Shown one piece after another: positions 2,015 to 60,625 of a DNA stretch of 64,000 bases (its first letter is position 1; the number at the start of each line of letters is the position of its first letter). Source of the stretch: Acutalibacter muris (GTDB lineage Bacteria > Bacillota > Clostridia > Oscillospirales > Acutalibacteraceae); contig NZ_CP021422.1 in assembly GCF_002201475.1 (NCBI RefSeq), forward strand, positions 372,001-436,000. Direction: 5' to 3'. The notes under the pieces were generated by a model, which saw only the letters and a list, made by a program, of their open reading frames with translations, was not told the DNA's origin and made no database searches. Both the position numbers and the translations under genes were made by a program.

Positions 2015-3349
2015 TTATGCCAGCGAGCCCATAGGGTCCCAGGGCTCCAGCTCGATGGGAGCCTGGTCCAGCTCGGCCCGCTGCTCGTCGGTCAGGTACT
2101 TCTTATGTACCACTACCTGATAGGTGTACTCGGTAAACCAGTCGTCGCTCATGACAAAGTACCCCTTCTCCCCGGGCTCGTCACCCCAGCTGTTCTCTAC
2201 CTTCCAGCGGTCAGGAGCGCCGTTCTCGTCCAGGTTCACCCCCTGGAACACCATGGCGTGGGTCATCAGGCTGTCGCCGTAGTCCAGGCGCTGGGCCTTA
2301 TCCATGCCGAACTCCACCCCGAAAAGCTGGTCCGGGCGCAGGGCCTCCAGGTCCATGATGCCGGTCTTCCTGGTGGAGCTCTTGCCCACGTCGCAGCCGA
2401 ACCAAACCGGCGCGCCGTCCTGCATCTGGCGTATGGCGGCCTTCTTCAGGTCCTCAACGGGCAGGTTTAGGTACTTCACGGGCCTGCCCTCCTTCACGTT
2501 GCCCAACAGCTTCACGGTAAAGGTTTTATGGAAGGGCTTGTCAGCGGTGGTGGCGTTTATCAGGCTGACGTAGTCCGAGAGCTCCCAGCCTACATATTTT
2601 TCATAGAAGCTCCGCCCGGTCATATCTGTCTCCCGGATAAACGTCTTGTCCTTGTCCCTGGCTTCAAAGGTGAAGGTTTTGGGCGGGTTGCCAAAGGCGA
2701 TGCAGAGCATATTGTAGATGGTGCAGAGCATAGCTTCCTTCATTTCCCGCAGCTGCTCCACGGTCTTGCCCCCGGCATGGCCGGTGCGTAAAACGCGGGC
2801 GAACTCCCGAAGCTTGCGGGTCATGTAGGAGGTGACCTCCCAGGTGCCCGAGGAGCAGGCTGTCTCGGGCATGGCGTCCTTGGGCACAACGCCGTACTTA
2901 TCCACCAAATTGCACAGCATATCCCACTGACCGCCATCGTTCAGGGGCGCGCCCAACAGGTGGGCTATCACCCGGCCGTTGGTGGGTTCATCAAGGGTAT
3001 CTAAGATACTCTCAAGGAAGTAGTTGGACTTCTCCAGCTTGTCGTAAAAGAGCAGGTAATTCTGGGAGAGCTCGAAATCCTCCAGGTTCAGCTTTCTCAT
3101 GACCTCCACCCGCATGGTGTTCAGCGCCGCGAACATCCAGCAGCGCCCCGAGGATTTCTGGTTGGTGATATGCCCGGTCTTCAGCTCCACCGAGAATTGG
3201 AAGCGGTCCCGCCGGGCGGCAAAGGGATCTGTGGCGCTCTGGTTCACGCCGTTTGCTGTTACCGCCAGCTGGGCCACCCGCTTTGCCGGGTCCCGGTGAA
3301 AATCCTTCTCGAACTCCTCAAGCTGTGTCAAACTGATGCCTTTGTTCAT
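2015..3349 (-). CDS. pepC: Aminopeptidase C / bleomycin hydrolase family cysteine peptidase
   Basis: Cytoplasmic papain-fold (C1B) aminopeptidase that trims oligopeptides. Length 444 residues is typical. The catalytic triad is visible: Cys70 in QKSSGRCWMFAAL, His364 in THAMVFQGV and Asn386 in KVENSWG. No signal peptide is seen, as expected for the family. The start has a GGAGG site seven bases upstream. It is followed by murF after about 30 bases, so the two are probably cotranscribed. The 200-base gap before murE on the same strand (3350-3549) holds no gene; an AT-rich stretch with TATATAAT-like bases just before the gene could be its promoter, but no clear -35 was found. Confidence 0.95.
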   Translation of the reverse strand: MNKGISLTQLEEFEKDFHRDPAKRVAQLAVTANGVNQSATDPFAARRDRFQFSVELKTGHITNQKSSGRCWMFAALNTMRVEVMRKLNLEDFELSQNYLLFYDKLEKSNYFLESILDTLDEPTNGRVIAHLLGAPLNDGGQWDMLCNLVDKYGVVPKDAMPETACSSGTWEVTSYMTRKLREFARVLRTGHAGGKTVEQLREMKEAMLCTIYNMLCIAFGNPPKTFTFEARDKDKTFIRETDMTGRSFYEKYVGWELSDYVSLINATTADKPFHKTFTVKLLGNVKEGRPVKYLNLPVEDLKKAAIRQMQDGAPVWFGCDVGKSSTRKTGIMDLEALRPDQLFGVEFGMDKAQRLDYGDSLMTHAMVFQGVNLDENGAPDRWKVENSWGDEPGEKGYFVMSDDWFTEYTYQVVVHKKYLTDEQRAELDQAPIELEPWDPMGSLA

Positions 3350-5880: not shown

Positions 5881-6957
5881 ATGTTAAGTATGATAAACTT
5901 TACAGGCATCAAATGCCCGGTCTGCGGCAAAGCCTTTACCGACGAGGACGATATTGTTGTCTGTCCCAAATGCGGCGCGCCCTATCACCGGGAGTGCTAC
6001 CAGGAGAAGGGCCAGTGCATTTTTGACGACCTGCACGAGAAGGGGAGGGAATGGGCCCCTCCGCCGCCCCCAAAGCCCCCGGTCACGGCTGAGGTAAAAG
6101 ACCGGGAGTGCCCTGTCTGCGGCGGGCTCAGCGCCCATAGCTCCAGGTTCTGCGACCACTGCGGCGCGCCGCTGCCGGGACAGAATCCCTTCGCCCCGGG
6201 CCCCCAGGCCCCTTTCCAGGGACAGGGCGGAGGCAGCCGGCCGCCGGTCCAGAACCCCTACCAGCCGGGCGGGACGCCACAGGGCCGGTATTATGGGCAG
6301 ATGCCCTTTATGTTCGACCCTATGGGCGGCGTGAGCCCTGCGGATACCCTGGATATGGGGGTAAGCTATGGTGATGCTTCCAAGCTTGTTAAGCAGAACA
6401 CCACCTACTATATGCCAACCTTCCGCTATATAAAGCAGACCGGCAGAAACAAGTTCAATTTCTGCGCCTTCCTGTTCTCGGGGGCCTGGATGCTGTACCG
6501 CAAGCAGTATAAGTACGGAATTGTGGTCACAGCGCTGATGTTTCTCTTATACCTTCTGTACCTGGCCGCGTCTGTGTTCGTGGCCACGCCGGCCCTTCTG
6601 GGCCTTATGCAGCAGGCGGGCATAGACGTGTCGGCGGGGCTCTCCACGGGCCTTACCAACGAGCAGCTTTTGGTGATAAGCCAGCTTATCACCGAGGAAC
6701 CCTCCCTGTACCTGGAGCTCTGCCTGCCGATGATGTGCCTTCTGCTTATGCTGGCGCTGATGATATTCATAGGCGTCAGGGGCAACAAGATGTATATGCG
6801 CCACTGTATAGTCACCGTGCGCAGGGTCAAGTCTGCGGACCTTTCCATAGAGCCCAATATGACCCTGGACCAGAAGGGCGGGGTGAACACCTCCGTTGCC
6901 GTGTGTATGTTCGTGTGCTATTTTTTGCTGGTGAATGTGGTGCCGCTGCTGCTGTAA
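5881..6957 (+). CDS. RING/zinc-ribbon and DUF2628-like membrane protein
   Basis: A 358-residue protein of unknown function. The N-terminus holds a bacterial RING-like zinc module (CPVCGKAF, then CPKCGAPYHRECY, residues about 12-40). A second zinc ribbon follows (CPVCGGL and CDHCGAPL, about residues 80-105), then a Pro/Gly/Gln-rich linker to about residue 165. The C-terminal half resembles DUF2628: a conserved NKFNFCAFLFSGAWMLYRKQ motif followed by three or so membrane segments. AAGGA is five bases before the chosen ATG; a second ATG at 5890 is possible. The next gene, galU, starts 26 bases later, so the two are probably cotranscribed. The zinc modules are predicted to face the cytoplasm. Confidence 0.85.
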   Translation: MLSMINFTGIKCPVCGKAFTDEDDIVVCPKCGAPYHRECYQEKGQCIFDDLHEKGREWAPPPPPKPPVTAEVKDRECPVCGGLSAHSSRFCDHCGAPLPGQNPFAPGPQAPFQGQGGGSRPPVQNPYQPGGTPQGRYYGQMPFMFDPMGGVSPADTLDMGVSYGDASKLVKQNTTYYMPTFRYIKQTGRNKFNFCAFLFSGAWMLYRKQYKYGIVVTALMFLLYLLYLAASVFVATPALLGLMQQAGIDVSAGLSTGLTNEQLLVISQLITEEPSLYLELCLPMMCLLLMLALMIFIGVRGNKMYMRHCIVTVRRVKSADLSIEPNMTLDQKGGVNTSVAVCMFVCYFLLVNVVPLLL

Positions 6958-6983
6958 CTTCCCGAGAGAAGGAGACGATACAG

Positions 6984-7859
6984 GTGAAAAAGATACGCAA
7001 GGCCGTTATACCCGCTGCGGGGCTGGGTACACGGGTGCTGCCGGCCACAAAGGCCATGCCAAAGGAGATGCTGCCCATTGTGGACAAGCCCGCCATACAG
7101 TATATCGTTGAGGAGGCGGCGGCCTCGGGCATTGAGGACGTGCTTATCATAACAAACCGGGGCAAGGGGCTTTTGGAGGACCATTTCGACCGGGCCCCGG
7201 AGCTGGAGGAGCGCCTTTCGGCCGATCCCAATAAGTCCGACGTGCTCGAGCAGGTTATAGGCATTTCAAGGCTCTGTAACGTCTGGTACGTGCGGCAGAA
7301 GGAGACAAAGGGTCTGGGCCACGCGGTGAACTGCGCCAGGGCCTTTGTGGGCGGCGAGCCCTTTGCGGTGCTGTATGGAGACGACGTTATAATGGGTGAG
7401 GAGCCCGCCTGCGGTCAGCTTATCAGGGCCTATGAGAAATACGGCCTGGGCGTGGTGGGGGTTAAGGAGGTTACCGCCGAGGCCATACGCAAGTATTCCT
7501 CCCTGCTGGTGGAGCCCTTAGAGGACGGCTGTCTCAGGTGCACGGATATGGTAGAGAAGCCGAAGCCCGGGGAGGAGTTCTCCCTCTATTCTATACTGGG
7601 CCGTTGCATACTGCCGCCGGAGATATTCGATATGCTGGACAACACTCCGCCCGGTGCGGGCGGGGAGATACAGCTTACGGACGCCATGAAGGCCCTGGCC
7701 CGCGAGAAGAGTATGATAGCCGTGGACTTTACCGGCACCCGCTATGACATGGGCAGCAAGCTGGGGGTTATGCAGGCCAACGTGGAGACGGCCCTTACAC
7801 ACCCGGAGATCGGGGCGGCCTTCAGGGAATATTTAAAGGAGCTGGCTGCGAGGCTTTAA
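6984..7859 (+). CDS. galU: UTP--glucose-1-phosphate uridylyltransferase
   Basis: Makes UDP-glucose from UTP and glucose 1-phosphate for cell-surface glycans. The protein is 291 residues, the usual length. The nucleotidyltransferase signature AAGLGTRVLPATKAMPKEML is near the N-terminus, followed by IVDKPAIQYIVEEA; YGDDV around residue 130 is the metal/nucleotide site and VEKP near residue 190 is the second conserved lysine region. The start is GTG at 6984 with GAAGGAG upstream; the open frame extends further back to 6735 but that part overlaps the preceding gene in another frame and is not coding. A bidirectional terminator follows. Confidence 0.96.
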   Translation: MKKIRKAVIPAAGLGTRVLPATKAMPKEMLPIVDKPAIQYIVEEAAASGIEDVLIITNRGKGLLEDHFDRAPELEERLSADPNKSDVLEQVIGISRLCNVWYVRQKETKGLGHAVNCARAFVGGEPFAVLYGDDVIMGEEPACGQLIRAYEKYGLGVVGVKEVTAEAIRKYSSLLVEPLEDGCLRCTDMVEKPKPGEEFSLYSILGRCILPPEIFDMLDNTPPGAGGEIQLTDAMKALAREKSMIAVDFTGTRYDMGSKLGVMQANVETALTHPEIGAAFREYLKELAARL

Positions 7860-57856: not shown

Positions 57857-57885
57857 TTGACAAGCCGTTTCAGCTCTGGTATAAT
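57857..57885 (+). promoter_or_regulatory. Sigma-A promoter for the riboswitch-exchanger unit
   Basis: Perfect TTGACA (57857-57862) and perfect TATAAT (57880-57885), 17-base spacer, extended TGG. The transcript should start near 57892. Confidence 0.88.
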
Positions 57886-57898
57886 ATGCCTACAATCG

Positions 57899-58070
57899 AA
57901 AACCCATGGGGGAGTAGTTAGGCGCGTTTCGCGTGGCAAGTCAACATACCCGGCGTTCTGCCTGGCTTGTCTTAAATAACGAGACTCATGTATGGCTGAA
58001 AGCCGTACATGCGCGGATTTGTCTTCTTGGGCTCACGTATGGCTTTGGGGCTGTGCGTGGGCCTTTTCGT
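57899..58070 (+). promoter_or_regulatory. yybP-ykoY (manganese) riboswitch with terminator
   Basis: The aptamer carries the class hallmarks: GGGGGAGTAGTT (about 57908-57919), AAGTCAACAT, a GGCAAG...GGCTTGTC helix, and AACGAGACTCATG (about 57977-57990). A following hairpin CATGTA-GGCT/AGCC-TACATG shares the CATG of the closing helix (57987-58011). A ten-pair terminator follows (58030-58039 with 58054-58063) and TTTTCGTTT. Metal binding to this class normally favours read-through. The controlled gene starts at 58103. Confidence 0.92.
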
Positions 58071-58102
58071 TTGGAATTAAAAATGGAGGAGAGGGAAAGG
58101 AA

Positions 58103-59080
58103 ATGGAACTGGCACTGGTAATTTTTCTGTTCGTCGTAGGTATTGTGTTCATCGTCAAGGGGGGCGACTACTTTGTGGACGCGGCCTCCTGGATAGCGGA
58201 GGTCAGCGGTATACCAAAGCTGATAATCGGGGCCACAATCGTAAGCCTTGCCACCACCCTGCCGGAGATGCTGGTCTCGGTGATGGCCGCAGCCCAGGGG
58301 AAGGTGGACATGGCTATCGGCAACGCCGTGGGCAGCGTGACGGCCAACATTGGCCTTATAATGGCCATCTCTATCCTGTGTATGCCTGGTAAGGCCCGGC
58401 GGAGGGACTATCTTAAAAAGTCCGTGCTCATGCTGGGGGCCGCGCTGATAGTGGTGCTCTCCGGGTTCATGGGGCAGATGGGGATAGTGGTAGCTATCGT
58501 AATGATAGCCATCTTCGCCGTATTCATGGCCGACAATATCCTTGAGGCAAAACGCTCCATGAGCGCCACCCGCACGGACAGCACACGGGCTATAGAGCGG
58601 CCAAAGCCGGAGCGCAGGGAGATAATCGTCAATATAATCAAGTTTGCTGTGGGCACCGTGGGCATTGTCTGGGGTGCGGACCTGCTGGTGGACAACGGCA
58701 GCGAGCTTGCAAGGTTTATAGGTATCTCAGAGCGGATAATCGGCGTGACTGTGATAGCCGTGGGCACCTCCCTGCCGGAGCTTATCACCACCATCACGGC
58801 CATAGTGAAGAAGGAGTCCTCCCTGTCGGTGGGCAATATACTTGGGGCCAACATCATAGACCTTACGCTTATACTGCCCATCAGCGCCCTGGTCTCCGGC
58901 AAAGCCCTGCCCATTGCCCCGGCCTCCGCCCTGCTGGACCTGCCCGCCTGCCTGCTGGTGGGGGGCGTGGCAATTATACCCACAATATTTACCCAGAAAT
59001 TCTCAAGGGTCCAAGGTGTGCTGCTGCTGGCCATATATACCGTGTATGTGGCCATTACCTGTGTGGTAATAGGGGCATGA
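58103..59080 (+). CDS. CaCA-family cation exchanger (YrbG type)
   Basis: 325 residues with about ten membrane segments in two inverted repeats. The alpha repeats are GATIVSLATTLPEMLVS with IGNAVGSVTANIGLIMA, and GVTVIAVGTSLPELITT with VGNILGANIIDLTLIL, carrying the paired acidic residues of Ca2+/Na+ exchangers. GAGGGAAAGG precedes the ATG at 58103; the frame is open upstream through the riboswitch but that is not coding. Its position under a manganese riboswitch suggests Mn2+ export or Mn-linked Ca2+ exchange. Confidence 0.9.
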   Translation: MELALVIFLFVVGIVFIVKGGDYFVDAASWIAEVSGIPKLIIGATIVSLATTLPEMLVSVMAAAQGKVDMAIGNAVGSVTANIGLIMAISILCMPGKARRRDYLKKSVLMLGAALIVVLSGFMGQMGIVVAIVMIAIFAVFMADNILEAKRSMSATRTDSTRAIERPKPERREIIVNIIKFAVGTVGIVWGADLLVDNGSELARFIGISERIIGVTVIAVGTSLPELITTITAIVKKESSLSVGNILGANIIDLTLILPISALVSGKALPIAPASALLDLPACLLVGGVAIIPTIFTQKFSRVQGVLLLAIYTVYVAITCVVIGA

Positions 59081-59187
59081 AAAAATTTTTTTATCTGTGC
59101 AAGGAAACGCCCTTTTCAACCGTATTATAGTCAGAGCCGTTTAAAAACGGCCCGTGAAAACGGCAAATATATCAGGAGGAAGGTCAC

Positions 59188-59574
59188 ATGAAAAGGTTAA
59201 TGACAGGATGTATTATGGCGGCGCTTATACTCAGCTGCGCCACAGTAAGCGCTTCGGCCCGGCACGGCTGCATGGACACGGTCTGCGGCGGGTTCTCTAT
59301 CGGGTGCGGGCCGGCCGTCTGCGTGAGCCAGGAGAGGGTTAGGCTACACAGCTGTGTGGATGAGGACGGCGACGGGGTCTGCGACAACTACGACCCCGAC
59401 CGCTGCCCCGGAAACGGCATAGGCGGCGGATATGTGGATACTGATAACGACGGAGTCTGCGACAACTATGACCCGGATTACTGCCCCGGCTATGGCAGCG
59501 GAAACGGCATGGGCTATGGCAACGGCGGCCATCATGGCGGCGGCCGGGGGCATCACGGCGGCAGGCACTGCTGA
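59188..59574 (+). CDS. Secreted protein with calcium-loop repeats and His/Gly-rich tail
   Basis: 128 residues. Signal peptide at 1-24 (cleavage near SASA). The mature part has eleven or so Cys, two copies of a thrombospondin-3/EF-loop-like repeat (DEDGDGVCDNYDPDRCPG at about 58-75 and DTDNDGVCDNYDPDYCPG at about 84-101), and a tail rich in Gly and His (GGHHGGGRGHHGGRHC). The acidic loops should bind Ca2+ and the His tail could bind Zn, Ni or Cu. AGGAGG precedes the ATG. The ECF sigma gene starts nine bases after its stop. Confidence 0.75.
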   Translation: MKRLMTGCIMAALILSCATVSASARHGCMDTVCGGFSIGCGPAVCVSQERVRLHSCVDEDGDGVCDNYDPDRCPGNGIGGGYVDTDNDGVCDNYDPDYCPGYGSGNGMGYGNGGHHGGGRGHHGGRHC

Positions 59575-59583
59575 TACGGACAT

Positions 59584-60066
59584 ATGCGCAGCGAGCAGGA
59601 GACGGCAGAGGCAATAGACCGGCACGCCGACATGGTGCGCAGGCTATGCCTTATACATCTGAAGAACCAAGCCGACTCTGAGGACGTGTTTCAAACGGTG
59701 TTCATGAAATACGCCCTCAGCTCTGTTGTGTTTGAAAATGAGGAGCATGAGAAGGCATGGTTCCTCCGGGTGACCATCAACGCCTGCCGGGACCTGCTGC
59801 GAAGCTTTTTCAGAAGCCGCACGGTCCCCTTGGAGGAGCTTATCGAGCTGCCGGACGAGACCTCCGGCGACTCCCGGGAGGTGCTCCGGGCGGTGCTGGA
59901 GCTGCCGGACAAGTACAGGGAGGTGGTGTACCTGCACTACTTCGAGGGCTACACCGCGCCGGAGATAGCCGGGCTCATGAGGAAAAATGTGAACACTGTA
60001 TATTCTCTGCTGGCACGCGCGAAGAAGCTGCTTAGGGGAAGGCTGGGAGGTGACGAGGATGCGTAG
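59584..60066 (+). CDS. ECF-type RNA polymerase sigma factor
   Basis: 160 residues: sigma region 2 (SEDVFQTVFMKYALSS) and region 4 (VVYLHYFEGYTAPEIAGLMR with KNVNTVYSLLARAKKLLRG), joined by a short linker, the minimal ECF layout. No extra domain. There is only a weak ribosome site; translation is probably coupled to the upstream secreted-protein gene. The anti-sigma gene overlaps its 3' end by eight bases. Confidence 0.92.
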   Translation: MRSEQETAEAIDRHADMVRRLCLIHLKNQADSEDVFQTVFMKYALSSVVFENEEHEKAWFLRVTINACRDLLRSFFRSRTVPLEELIELPDETSGDSREVLRAVLELPDKYREVVYLHYFEGYTAPEIAGLMRKNVNTVYSLLARAKKLLRGRLGGDEDA

Positions 60067-60625
60067 CAGGCTGCAAAGCGCTTTCTCGGCGGTGCGTGCC
60101 GAGAGTGGGCTTAAAGAGAGGACCCTCCGGCGTATCTACGCCCCGGCGCGGCGCGGCAAAAAGCGTCCGCTCGCCCTTGCGGCGGCCTGCCTTGCGGTGC
60201 TGCTCTGCCTTGGGGGCGGGCTGTTCTTCACGCCGGTTTCAGCCATCGGCATTGAGATAAATCCGTCGCTGCGGCTGAAGGTCAACCGCTTCGACATAGT
60301 TATCGGGGTCGAGGGGCTGAATCGGGACGGCGAACGCATAGCGGAGAACACCCAGGTCCTATTTTCCGAATACTCCAAAGCTATCGATACCCTTCTCTCC
60401 GACCCACAGCTCCGGGTATATCTCGAGGAGGGCCGGGACATGGAGATATATGTTGAGTGCGAGGACGAGCAGCGGTGCAACAGGATGCTGGAGCGAGTGG
60501 AGGGCTGCGTAAACGGCGAAGGGAACGTTACCTGCCACGCCGGCAGCGGCTCGGGCCATGGAGAAGGGCACGGCGGGGGCCACGGGAGGTGTCACAGGCA
60601 TCGGGGCGGCCAGGAGACAGATTAA
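60059..60625 (+). CDS. RsgI-like membrane anti-sigma factor with His-rich tail
   Basis: 188 residues. A short cytoplasmic part (about 1-36) that would bind the sigma factor, one membrane segment (about 38-58), then an extracellular domain opening with IEINPSLRLKVNRFDIVIGV and EGLNRDGERI, typical of the RsgI middle domain. A Cys-containing region (CEDEQRC, about 134-140) leads to a Gly/His tail (about 162-184: SGHGEGHGGGHGRCHRHRGG). The ATG at 60059 has GGAGGTGA six bases upstream. The tail resembles the tail of the secreted protein two genes upstream. Confidence 0.85.
   Translation: MRSRLQSAFSAVRAESGLKERTLRRIYAPARRGKKRPLALAAACLAVLLCLGGGLFFTPVSAIGIEINPSLRLKVNRFDIVIGVEGLNRDGERIAENTQVLFSEYSKAIDTLLSDPQLRVYLEEGRDMEIYVECEDEQRCNRMLERVEGCVNGEGNVTCHAGSGSGHGEGHGGGHGRCHRHRGGQETD

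Follow-up and report, generated by a model that had tools for sequence, protein, structure and literature searches.

Genes at the locus

The window, the whole stretch of DNA that was analysed, comprises 64,000 nucleotides of contig NZ_CP021422.1 of Acutalibacter muris, a genome of 3.80 Mb in a single contig. Four genes lie in a row on its plus strand: an exchanger gene of the CaCA family (58103–59080), sec (59188–59574), encoding a small secreted protein of 128 residues whose signal peptide was judged by eye, sig (59584–60066), encoding an extracytoplasmic function (ECF) sigma factor of 160 residues, and anti (60059–60625), encoding a membrane anti-sigma factor of 188 residues. The start of anti is taken as the likely ATG at 60059, which gives an 8-nt overlap with sig; a start at GTG 60050 would give 191 residues. 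A preliminary description of this DNA had proposed that all four genes, together with a yybP-ykoY riboswitch ahead of the exchanger gene, make up one metal-responsive unit. We find that sec, sig and anti are one conserved three-gene unit, called the cassette below, and that the exchanger and its riboswitch are not supported as members of it.

The protein types assigned in the preliminary description hold up. Sig scores 67.8 bits against TIGR02937 (cut-off 42.9) and contains Sigma70_r2 and Sigma70_r4_2, that is, regions 2 and 4 only; SigI models are absent from its 25 best NCBIfam matches. Anti, described as RsgI-like, matches RsgI_M (PF23750) with 50.4 bits (cut-off 25.3), and the exchanger matches TIGR00367 with 218.6 bits (cut-off 179.65). 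The translation of sec contains two calcium-type loops, DEDGDGVCD (residues 58–66; 59359–59385) and DTDNDGVCD (residues 84–92; 59437–59463), and a Gly/His tail (residues 111–128; 59518–59571). Anti has a predicted transmembrane segment at about residues 37–55 (60167–60223), a hydrophobic stretch modelled as a helix over residues 37–50, followed by an RsgI-type (SEAL) outer domain (residues 59–162; 60233–60544) and a Gly/His tail of its own (residues 165–188; 60551–60622).

Conservation and distribution of the cassette

Evidence that the three genes belong together came from two sets of loci. In the same-group set, a sec-like gene precedes the sigma gene at all 17 loci with a sigma and an anti-sigma gene (L052–L068); besides 15 such sec genes, one lies at a contig end (L061) and one is a Cys/His-repeat variant (L058). 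At L067 (5016–5929) the anti-sigma gene is split into two frames, with sec and the sigma gene intact. Two further loci, L069 and L070, have no cassette and no sigma match. L071, from a relative in the same order only, carries an ECF sigma gene and an RsgI-type anti-sigma gene without sec (6102–7644, minus strand), with a promoter of the cassette type immediately ahead of the sigma gene. Its anti-sigma tail is rich in Ser, Asn and Asp and has a few His close to the end; the locus may represent an ancestral form.

For the wider set, the anti-sigma alignment picked out 75 loci in a named genome collection. Four were set aside as an outgroup, leaving 71. In three of the four (L150, L156, L158) a SigI-type sigma gene lies upstream, with SigI models as the best match; no upstream sigma gene was read at the fourth, L157, whose anti-sigma factor resembles that of L156. 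No outgroup locus has sec, and the anti-sigma tails there are either rich in Lys, Asp and Glu or mixed. Among the 71, sec is present at 67 (65 called by script, L128 and L145 by eye), and two loci, L101 and L123, begin at a contig edge. A separate sigma gene was called beside the anti-sigma gene at 65 loci; at L101 it is cut, at L145 it was read by eye, and L096, L127 and L134 (5440–5650) are without one. The last three are Erysipelotrichaceae-type loci with a sec-anti pair, and for two of the three a sigma homologue lies elsewhere in the genome. At L056 (7394–8593; identical with L088) the sigma gene reads through into the anti-sigma gene, giving a single frame of 399 residues that would reflect either natural fusion of the two or loss of the stop codon.

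The cassette spans several families of gut Firmicutes and some Coriobacteria. Its carriers include Oscillospiraceae, Lachnospiraceae, Butyricicoccus, Faecalibacterium, Erysipelotrichaceae, Atopobiaceae, Olsenella, Eggerthellales and a Treponema bin; many are metagenome bins, and the named strains include Butyricicoccus pullicaecorum DSM 23266 (L133) and Frisingicoccus caecimuris DSM 28559 (L124). In a sample of 291 genomes from the class, the anti-sigma profile matches 107; among the matches listed, most align only from about position 25–50 of the profile and 10 begin at position 6 or earlier, indicating that the cassette is patchy. No paper on the cassette was found in the open-licence literature searched.

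The anti-sigma factor has an RsgI-type outer domain

RsgI_M matches all 52 of a hand-picked set of anti homologues, and the structure model built from these 52 sequences shows the RsgI/SEAL fold in the outer domain. A first model, made from 17 sequences (pLDDT 66), gave weak matches to ribosomal S11-like chains and no RsgI chain among the 50 matches listed, and was replaced by the 52-sequence model. Anti itself aligns with positions 2–81 of the 133 in RsgI_M. The small clade to which the window belongs lacks the helical part (SxGKYxAxLELxxLD...MTMREI) that precedes the tail in most aligned homologues. The tail is predicted to be disordered and has low confidence in the model. The RsgI N-terminal inhibitory domain, which we take to be PF12791, gave no Pfam match in anti at E-values up to 1, nor in the 52 homologues at 0.01.

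Five RsgI chains in the PDB begin where the alignment places Pro69 of anti (with the aligned letters seen for three), and by analogy with them the outer domain is predicted to autocleave between Asn68 and Pro69 (60260–60265). The Asn-Pro pair is present at 65 of the 71 loci, including L124; it is also invariant in the 52-sequence alignment, partly by choice, since known homologues without the pair were left out when that alignment was picked by hand. A gene for a site-2 protease is present in the genome.

Covariation of the two Gly/His tails

Tests on the tails used 58 of the 71 loci; the other 13 were dropped for want of a called sec or sigma reading frame, or as cut by a contig end or broken in frame. 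In 53 of these 58 loci, the Sec homologue has between one and seven loops of the DxDGDGxCD type; the protein is also marked by numerous Cys residues and a Gly/His/Arg tail. In the second loop, D84, D88, G89, C91 and D92 are invariant across 18 aligned homologues, and the loop pattern leads us to predict that Sec binds calcium. No Pfam family was found above cut-off for Sec of the window; 18 homologues gave only stray weak matches, with none to TSP3 and a single weak one to EF-hand_1 (E 0.00034), and the nearest PDB profile match was likewise weak (5wtl, E 0.064). At L058, which comes from the same genome as L097, repeats of the CPTCGLQHC type replace the loops, and an HHGG tail is kept.

The preliminary description had also remarked on the likeness of the two tails. 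This likeness is conserved in kind, and His content of the anti tail correlates with that of the Sec tail (rho 0.50 across the 58 loci, 0.57 after dereplication at 70% sigma identity to 24 loci, and 0.50 once nearest relatives were subtracted). Given GC content, the correlation is 0.52 (permutation p 0.0005) and 0.61 (p 0.0025) for the full and dereplicated sets, although the permutations ignore the tree and the p values are therefore only indicative. The corresponding controls are 0.05 and 0.20 for the Sec tail against sigma, 0.25 and −0.02 for the Sec tail against the anti core, and −0.25 and −0.24 for the anti tail against sigma. Gly and Asn covary less strongly than His. An alternative explanation is that the tails are neutral low-complexity sequence, alike through composition and relatedness only, as might be suggested by the variation in length and order of both tails and by the fall of the Asn correlation from 0.53 to 0.35 when GC content is taken out. 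Since the His correlation survives both the GC correction and the subtraction of nearest relatives, and the controls are weaker, none beyond 0.25 in either direction, we regard neutral tails as improbable. The likeness exceeds chance, and the two tails belong together.

The cassette promoter and its reach

An ECF-type promoter precedes sec at 59099–59126, with a −35 element GCAAGG, a 16-nt spacer and a −10 element CGTATT. The motif recurs before sec at fixed spacing in 13 relatives, making 14 same-group loci with the window, with the consensus TGAATGGATTT...CAATCGTATTATA.GTGAA, and it is found in the wider loci too. A loose form of the pattern matched 55 of 65 upstream regions, compared with 11.7 expected from shuffled sequence; at least four of the 55 (L091, L113, L127, L134) are chance matches elsewhere in the region. 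The promoter stretch was also considered as the start of a coding frame (MNGF...NRI in some loci), which was rejected because of a stop in L106 and a divergent sequence in L097. Downstream of the promoter, a short inverted repeat, GCCGTTT/AAACGGC (59136–59151), lies in the 5' untranslated stretch, and similar repeats occur in several relatives.

Searches with the fitted pattern point to a narrow set of targets. In the genome of the window, the one exact match is at this operon, and at three mismatches there are 11 matches, against 11 for a reversed control. In 60 relatives, the cassette accounts for six of the seven exact matches and, once one mismatch is allowed, for 12 of the 47 matches listed; the 35 elsewhere compare with 70 for the reversed control. 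In 41 carrier genomes, hand-picked from the 71 and mostly ones whose promoter had already shown, 27 of 31 matches with at most one mismatch are at the cassette and four elsewhere, compared with five for the control. From this pattern of matches across genomes, it is very probable that Sig transcribes its own cassette and, with the motif at this stringency, little else. The genome of the sec-anti pair L134 shows a natural split of the operon, with an unlinked sigma gene under the same promoter: before that gene (L230, from 1444) stand −35 and −10 elements TTGAATAA and CGTATTA, 16 nt apart, as at L134. No such site was seen before another unlinked sigma gene, L231.

A rival explanation is that the cassette is a cell-wall or mechanical sensor like RsgI of Bacillus subtilis. 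The Gly-rich tail would then span the wall flexibly and be pulled or set free where the wall is defective, Sec would serve at the surface as a repair or coat protein, and the tails would match through the wall that they share. The RsgI-type domain of Anti, the predicted disorder of its tail and the existence of three cassettes with no His in either tail are all consistent with such a sensor, and a passage of a review (PMC10202637) describes RsgI of B. subtilis as constitutively cut and as a sensor of the wall. A wall sensor alone leaves the covariation of His, rather than of Gly alone, unexplained, and no wall gene shares the cassette promoter in the genomes searched. We consider this explanation possible, though on the unlikely side.

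The exchanger and its leader

The exchanger gene, with a likely start at ATG 58103, has a promoter of its own, of the sigma-A type (TTGACA-17-TATAAT; 57857–57885), identical in the three exchanger-bearing relatives. The riboswitch proposed for its leader found mixed support. By eye, the core motifs GGGGAGUAG and GUCAACAUAC and a P1 helix of the yybP-ykoY class can be recognized at 57905–57990, a strong terminator follows at 58029–58067 (−26.2 kcal/mol for the stretch 58028–58082), and the leader is almost unchanged in the three relatives. The score for RF00080, at a lax threshold, is 11.3 bits, below the Rfam gathering score of 45, and Rfam gave no yybP-ykoY match in those relatives. A hairpin at 57987–58011 has bases in common with P1, and its 3' arm (58002–58011) can pair with part of the 5' arm of the terminator (58034–58043) with one mismatch. 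Judged by eye from these pairings, the leader may be an ON switch in which formation of P1 frees the antiterminator arm, the order of switching being our inference. With a score far too low and yet a conserved core and a tidy antiterminator/terminator layout, this may be a yybP-ykoY-like subtype that Rfam misses.

The proposal that exchanger and cassette form a four-gene metal unit was tested on the same loci. The exchanger adjoins the cassette at three of the 17 same-group loci (L052, L053, L054) and at three of the 71 wider loci (L084–L086; the same three of 75 before removal of the outgroup), which are the genomes of L052–L054. At least one gene further upstream of the exchanger is also retained in these three, so that the adjacency is plain synteny. 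The preliminary description had itself held that the link would be accidental if homologues of the sigma/anti-sigma pair mostly lacked the secreted gene and the exchanger and the His tails varied freely or bound no metal, and for the part on the exchanger this is the case; of the linkage that it had seen, the part joining sec, sig and anti stands. In favour of the larger unit are the adjacency, seen both in this DNA and in three of its close relatives, and the lack of any terminator noted between the exchanger gene and sec, which leaves room for some read-through. The cassette nevertheless carries its own promoter, and the four-gene unit, including the manganese riboswitch, is refuted as a general unit and very improbable overall.

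A metal homeostat is a further candidate explanation. Loading of the His tail of Anti by a transition metal or calcium might trigger release of the sigma factor, with Sec acting as a secreted metal buffer; the His covariation, the calcium-type loops of Sec and the Cys/His repeats that replace them in L058/L097 are consistent with this. Nevertheless, three of 58 anti tails and 19 of 58 Sec tails have no His, and promoter matches at metal genes are not above background in the genomes searched. In 111 of 164 neighbouring reading frames (53, including those of L084–L086, were left out; frames were chosen by length and some may be spurious), no metal-transport family recurs. Among the 116 families found, those with at least two members were ABC_tran (four), Phage_integrase (three) and SUFBD_core (three), with two each of MatE, MerR, TetR, sigma-70, calcineurin-like and SMC. 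We regard a metal homeostat as rather unlikely.

A model for the cassette

That the cassette, the SEAL fold of its anti-sigma factor and control of its own operon hold jointly is, in our judgement, highly probable. Beyond this, we propose that sec, sig and anti make up an envelope signalling cassette that is self-contained and regulates itself, senses through a tail and is subject to feedback, a proposal that we consider evenly balanced between right and wrong. Anti would hold the ECF sigma factor at the membrane. By homology, its SEAL domain would cut itself between Asn68 and Pro69, with the halves kept together by a beta-sheet, and the Gly/His tail outside the cell would be the sensing end. 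Loading of the tail by a ligand, or pulling on it, would part the cut halves; RseP, the site-2 protease, followed by a protease in the cytoplasm, would, again by homology, release the sigma factor, which would transcribe chiefly its own operon. Sec, the output, which has a tail of this type as well as predicted calcium-type loops, would most likely bind the same ligand and damp the signal.

Given the covariation of the sensor tail with the output protein, the two probably share a ligand, and the matching tails suggest that the switch senses what its main product handles. Competition for, or buffering of, the sensor tail by the secreted protein, as the preliminary description had imagined, fits the data. 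We propose only tentatively that both tails bind one ligand in a feedback loop, as a case that falls a little short of even. Candidates for the ligand are a metal ion, a cell-wall component or something else, and a metal in particular is doubtful. A more specific version of the model is a surface homeostat, in which the main or only target of the ECF sigma factor is its own operon, the autocleaved SEAL anti-sigma factor is sensitive to force, and its tail imitates that of the secreted product, so that the cell would read the extracellular state of that product (its amount, metal loading or assembly) directly; we think this version unlikely. Alternatively, Sec could itself be the ligand of Anti, binding the matching tail and activating its own operon as positive feedback or a density signal. 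The matched tails are consistent with this mechanism, and so is the fact that the operon encodes nothing besides Sec and the sigma/anti-sigma pair, but a self-activating loop would need an extra brake; we consider this mechanism distinctly improbable.

Several observations weigh against the proposed tail-sensing cassette. Six anti homologues lack Asn-Pro (L125, L133, L151, L152, L153, L155) and must, like RsgI8 of Clostridium thermocellum, be triggered without that cut. The sigma/anti-sigma pair of L071 can exist without sec, so sec is not indispensable; no sec was seen at L136, and what is left of it at L142 (near 2802–3050) is a signal-peptide-like start that reads on into the sigma gene. 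Besides the three loci with His in neither tail, 16 have a His-free Sec tail with a partner that has His, and relatedness was only roughly corrected in the covariation test. Finally, 14 of the 41 carrier genomes have no match to the strict promoter pattern, so targets with looser sites may be missed.

The cassette provides a sigma factor that seems to have a single main target, and it offers a clean test of how self-cutting domains of the RsgI type are triggered.

Comparison with known systems

Parallels with described systems are partial. ECF systems of the CnrYXH type sense metal; the cassette shares with them the idea of an ECF sigma factor freed by metal sensing outside the cytoplasm, and the idea only, since the proteins differ. 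The DxDGDGxCD pattern of Sec resembles the calcium loops of thrombospondin type 3 and EF-hand-like proteins, but Sec has no TSP3 family match and Cys/His repeats stand in for the loops in L058/L097.

Other ECF pairs, such as SigW-RsiW and SigV-RsiV of B. subtilis, are released by regulated intramembrane proteolysis. They have in common with the cassette an ECF sigma factor, a membrane anti-sigma factor, an own promoter and a site-2 protease in the genome. Important differences are that the outer domain of Anti is RsgI-type with a predicted self-cut, in place of cutting by a regulated site-1 protease, and that the cassette sigma factor appears to target one operon.

The SigI-RsgI systems of B. 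subtilis and C. thermocellum likewise have a membrane anti-sigma factor encoded beside its sigma gene, with an RsgI_M domain, its fold and its Asn-Pro site, and with an outer tail or sensor part past the domain. In contrast to them, the cassette has a sigma factor of the ECF type rather than SigI, an anti-sigma factor without a match to the RsgI N-terminal domain and, in the window, without most of the C-terminal half of RsgI_M, and an operon with a dedicated secreted protein whose tail is matched by the Gly/His-rich tail of the sensor. The cassette thus joins an RsgI-type, predicted self-cutting domain to ECF sigma factors.

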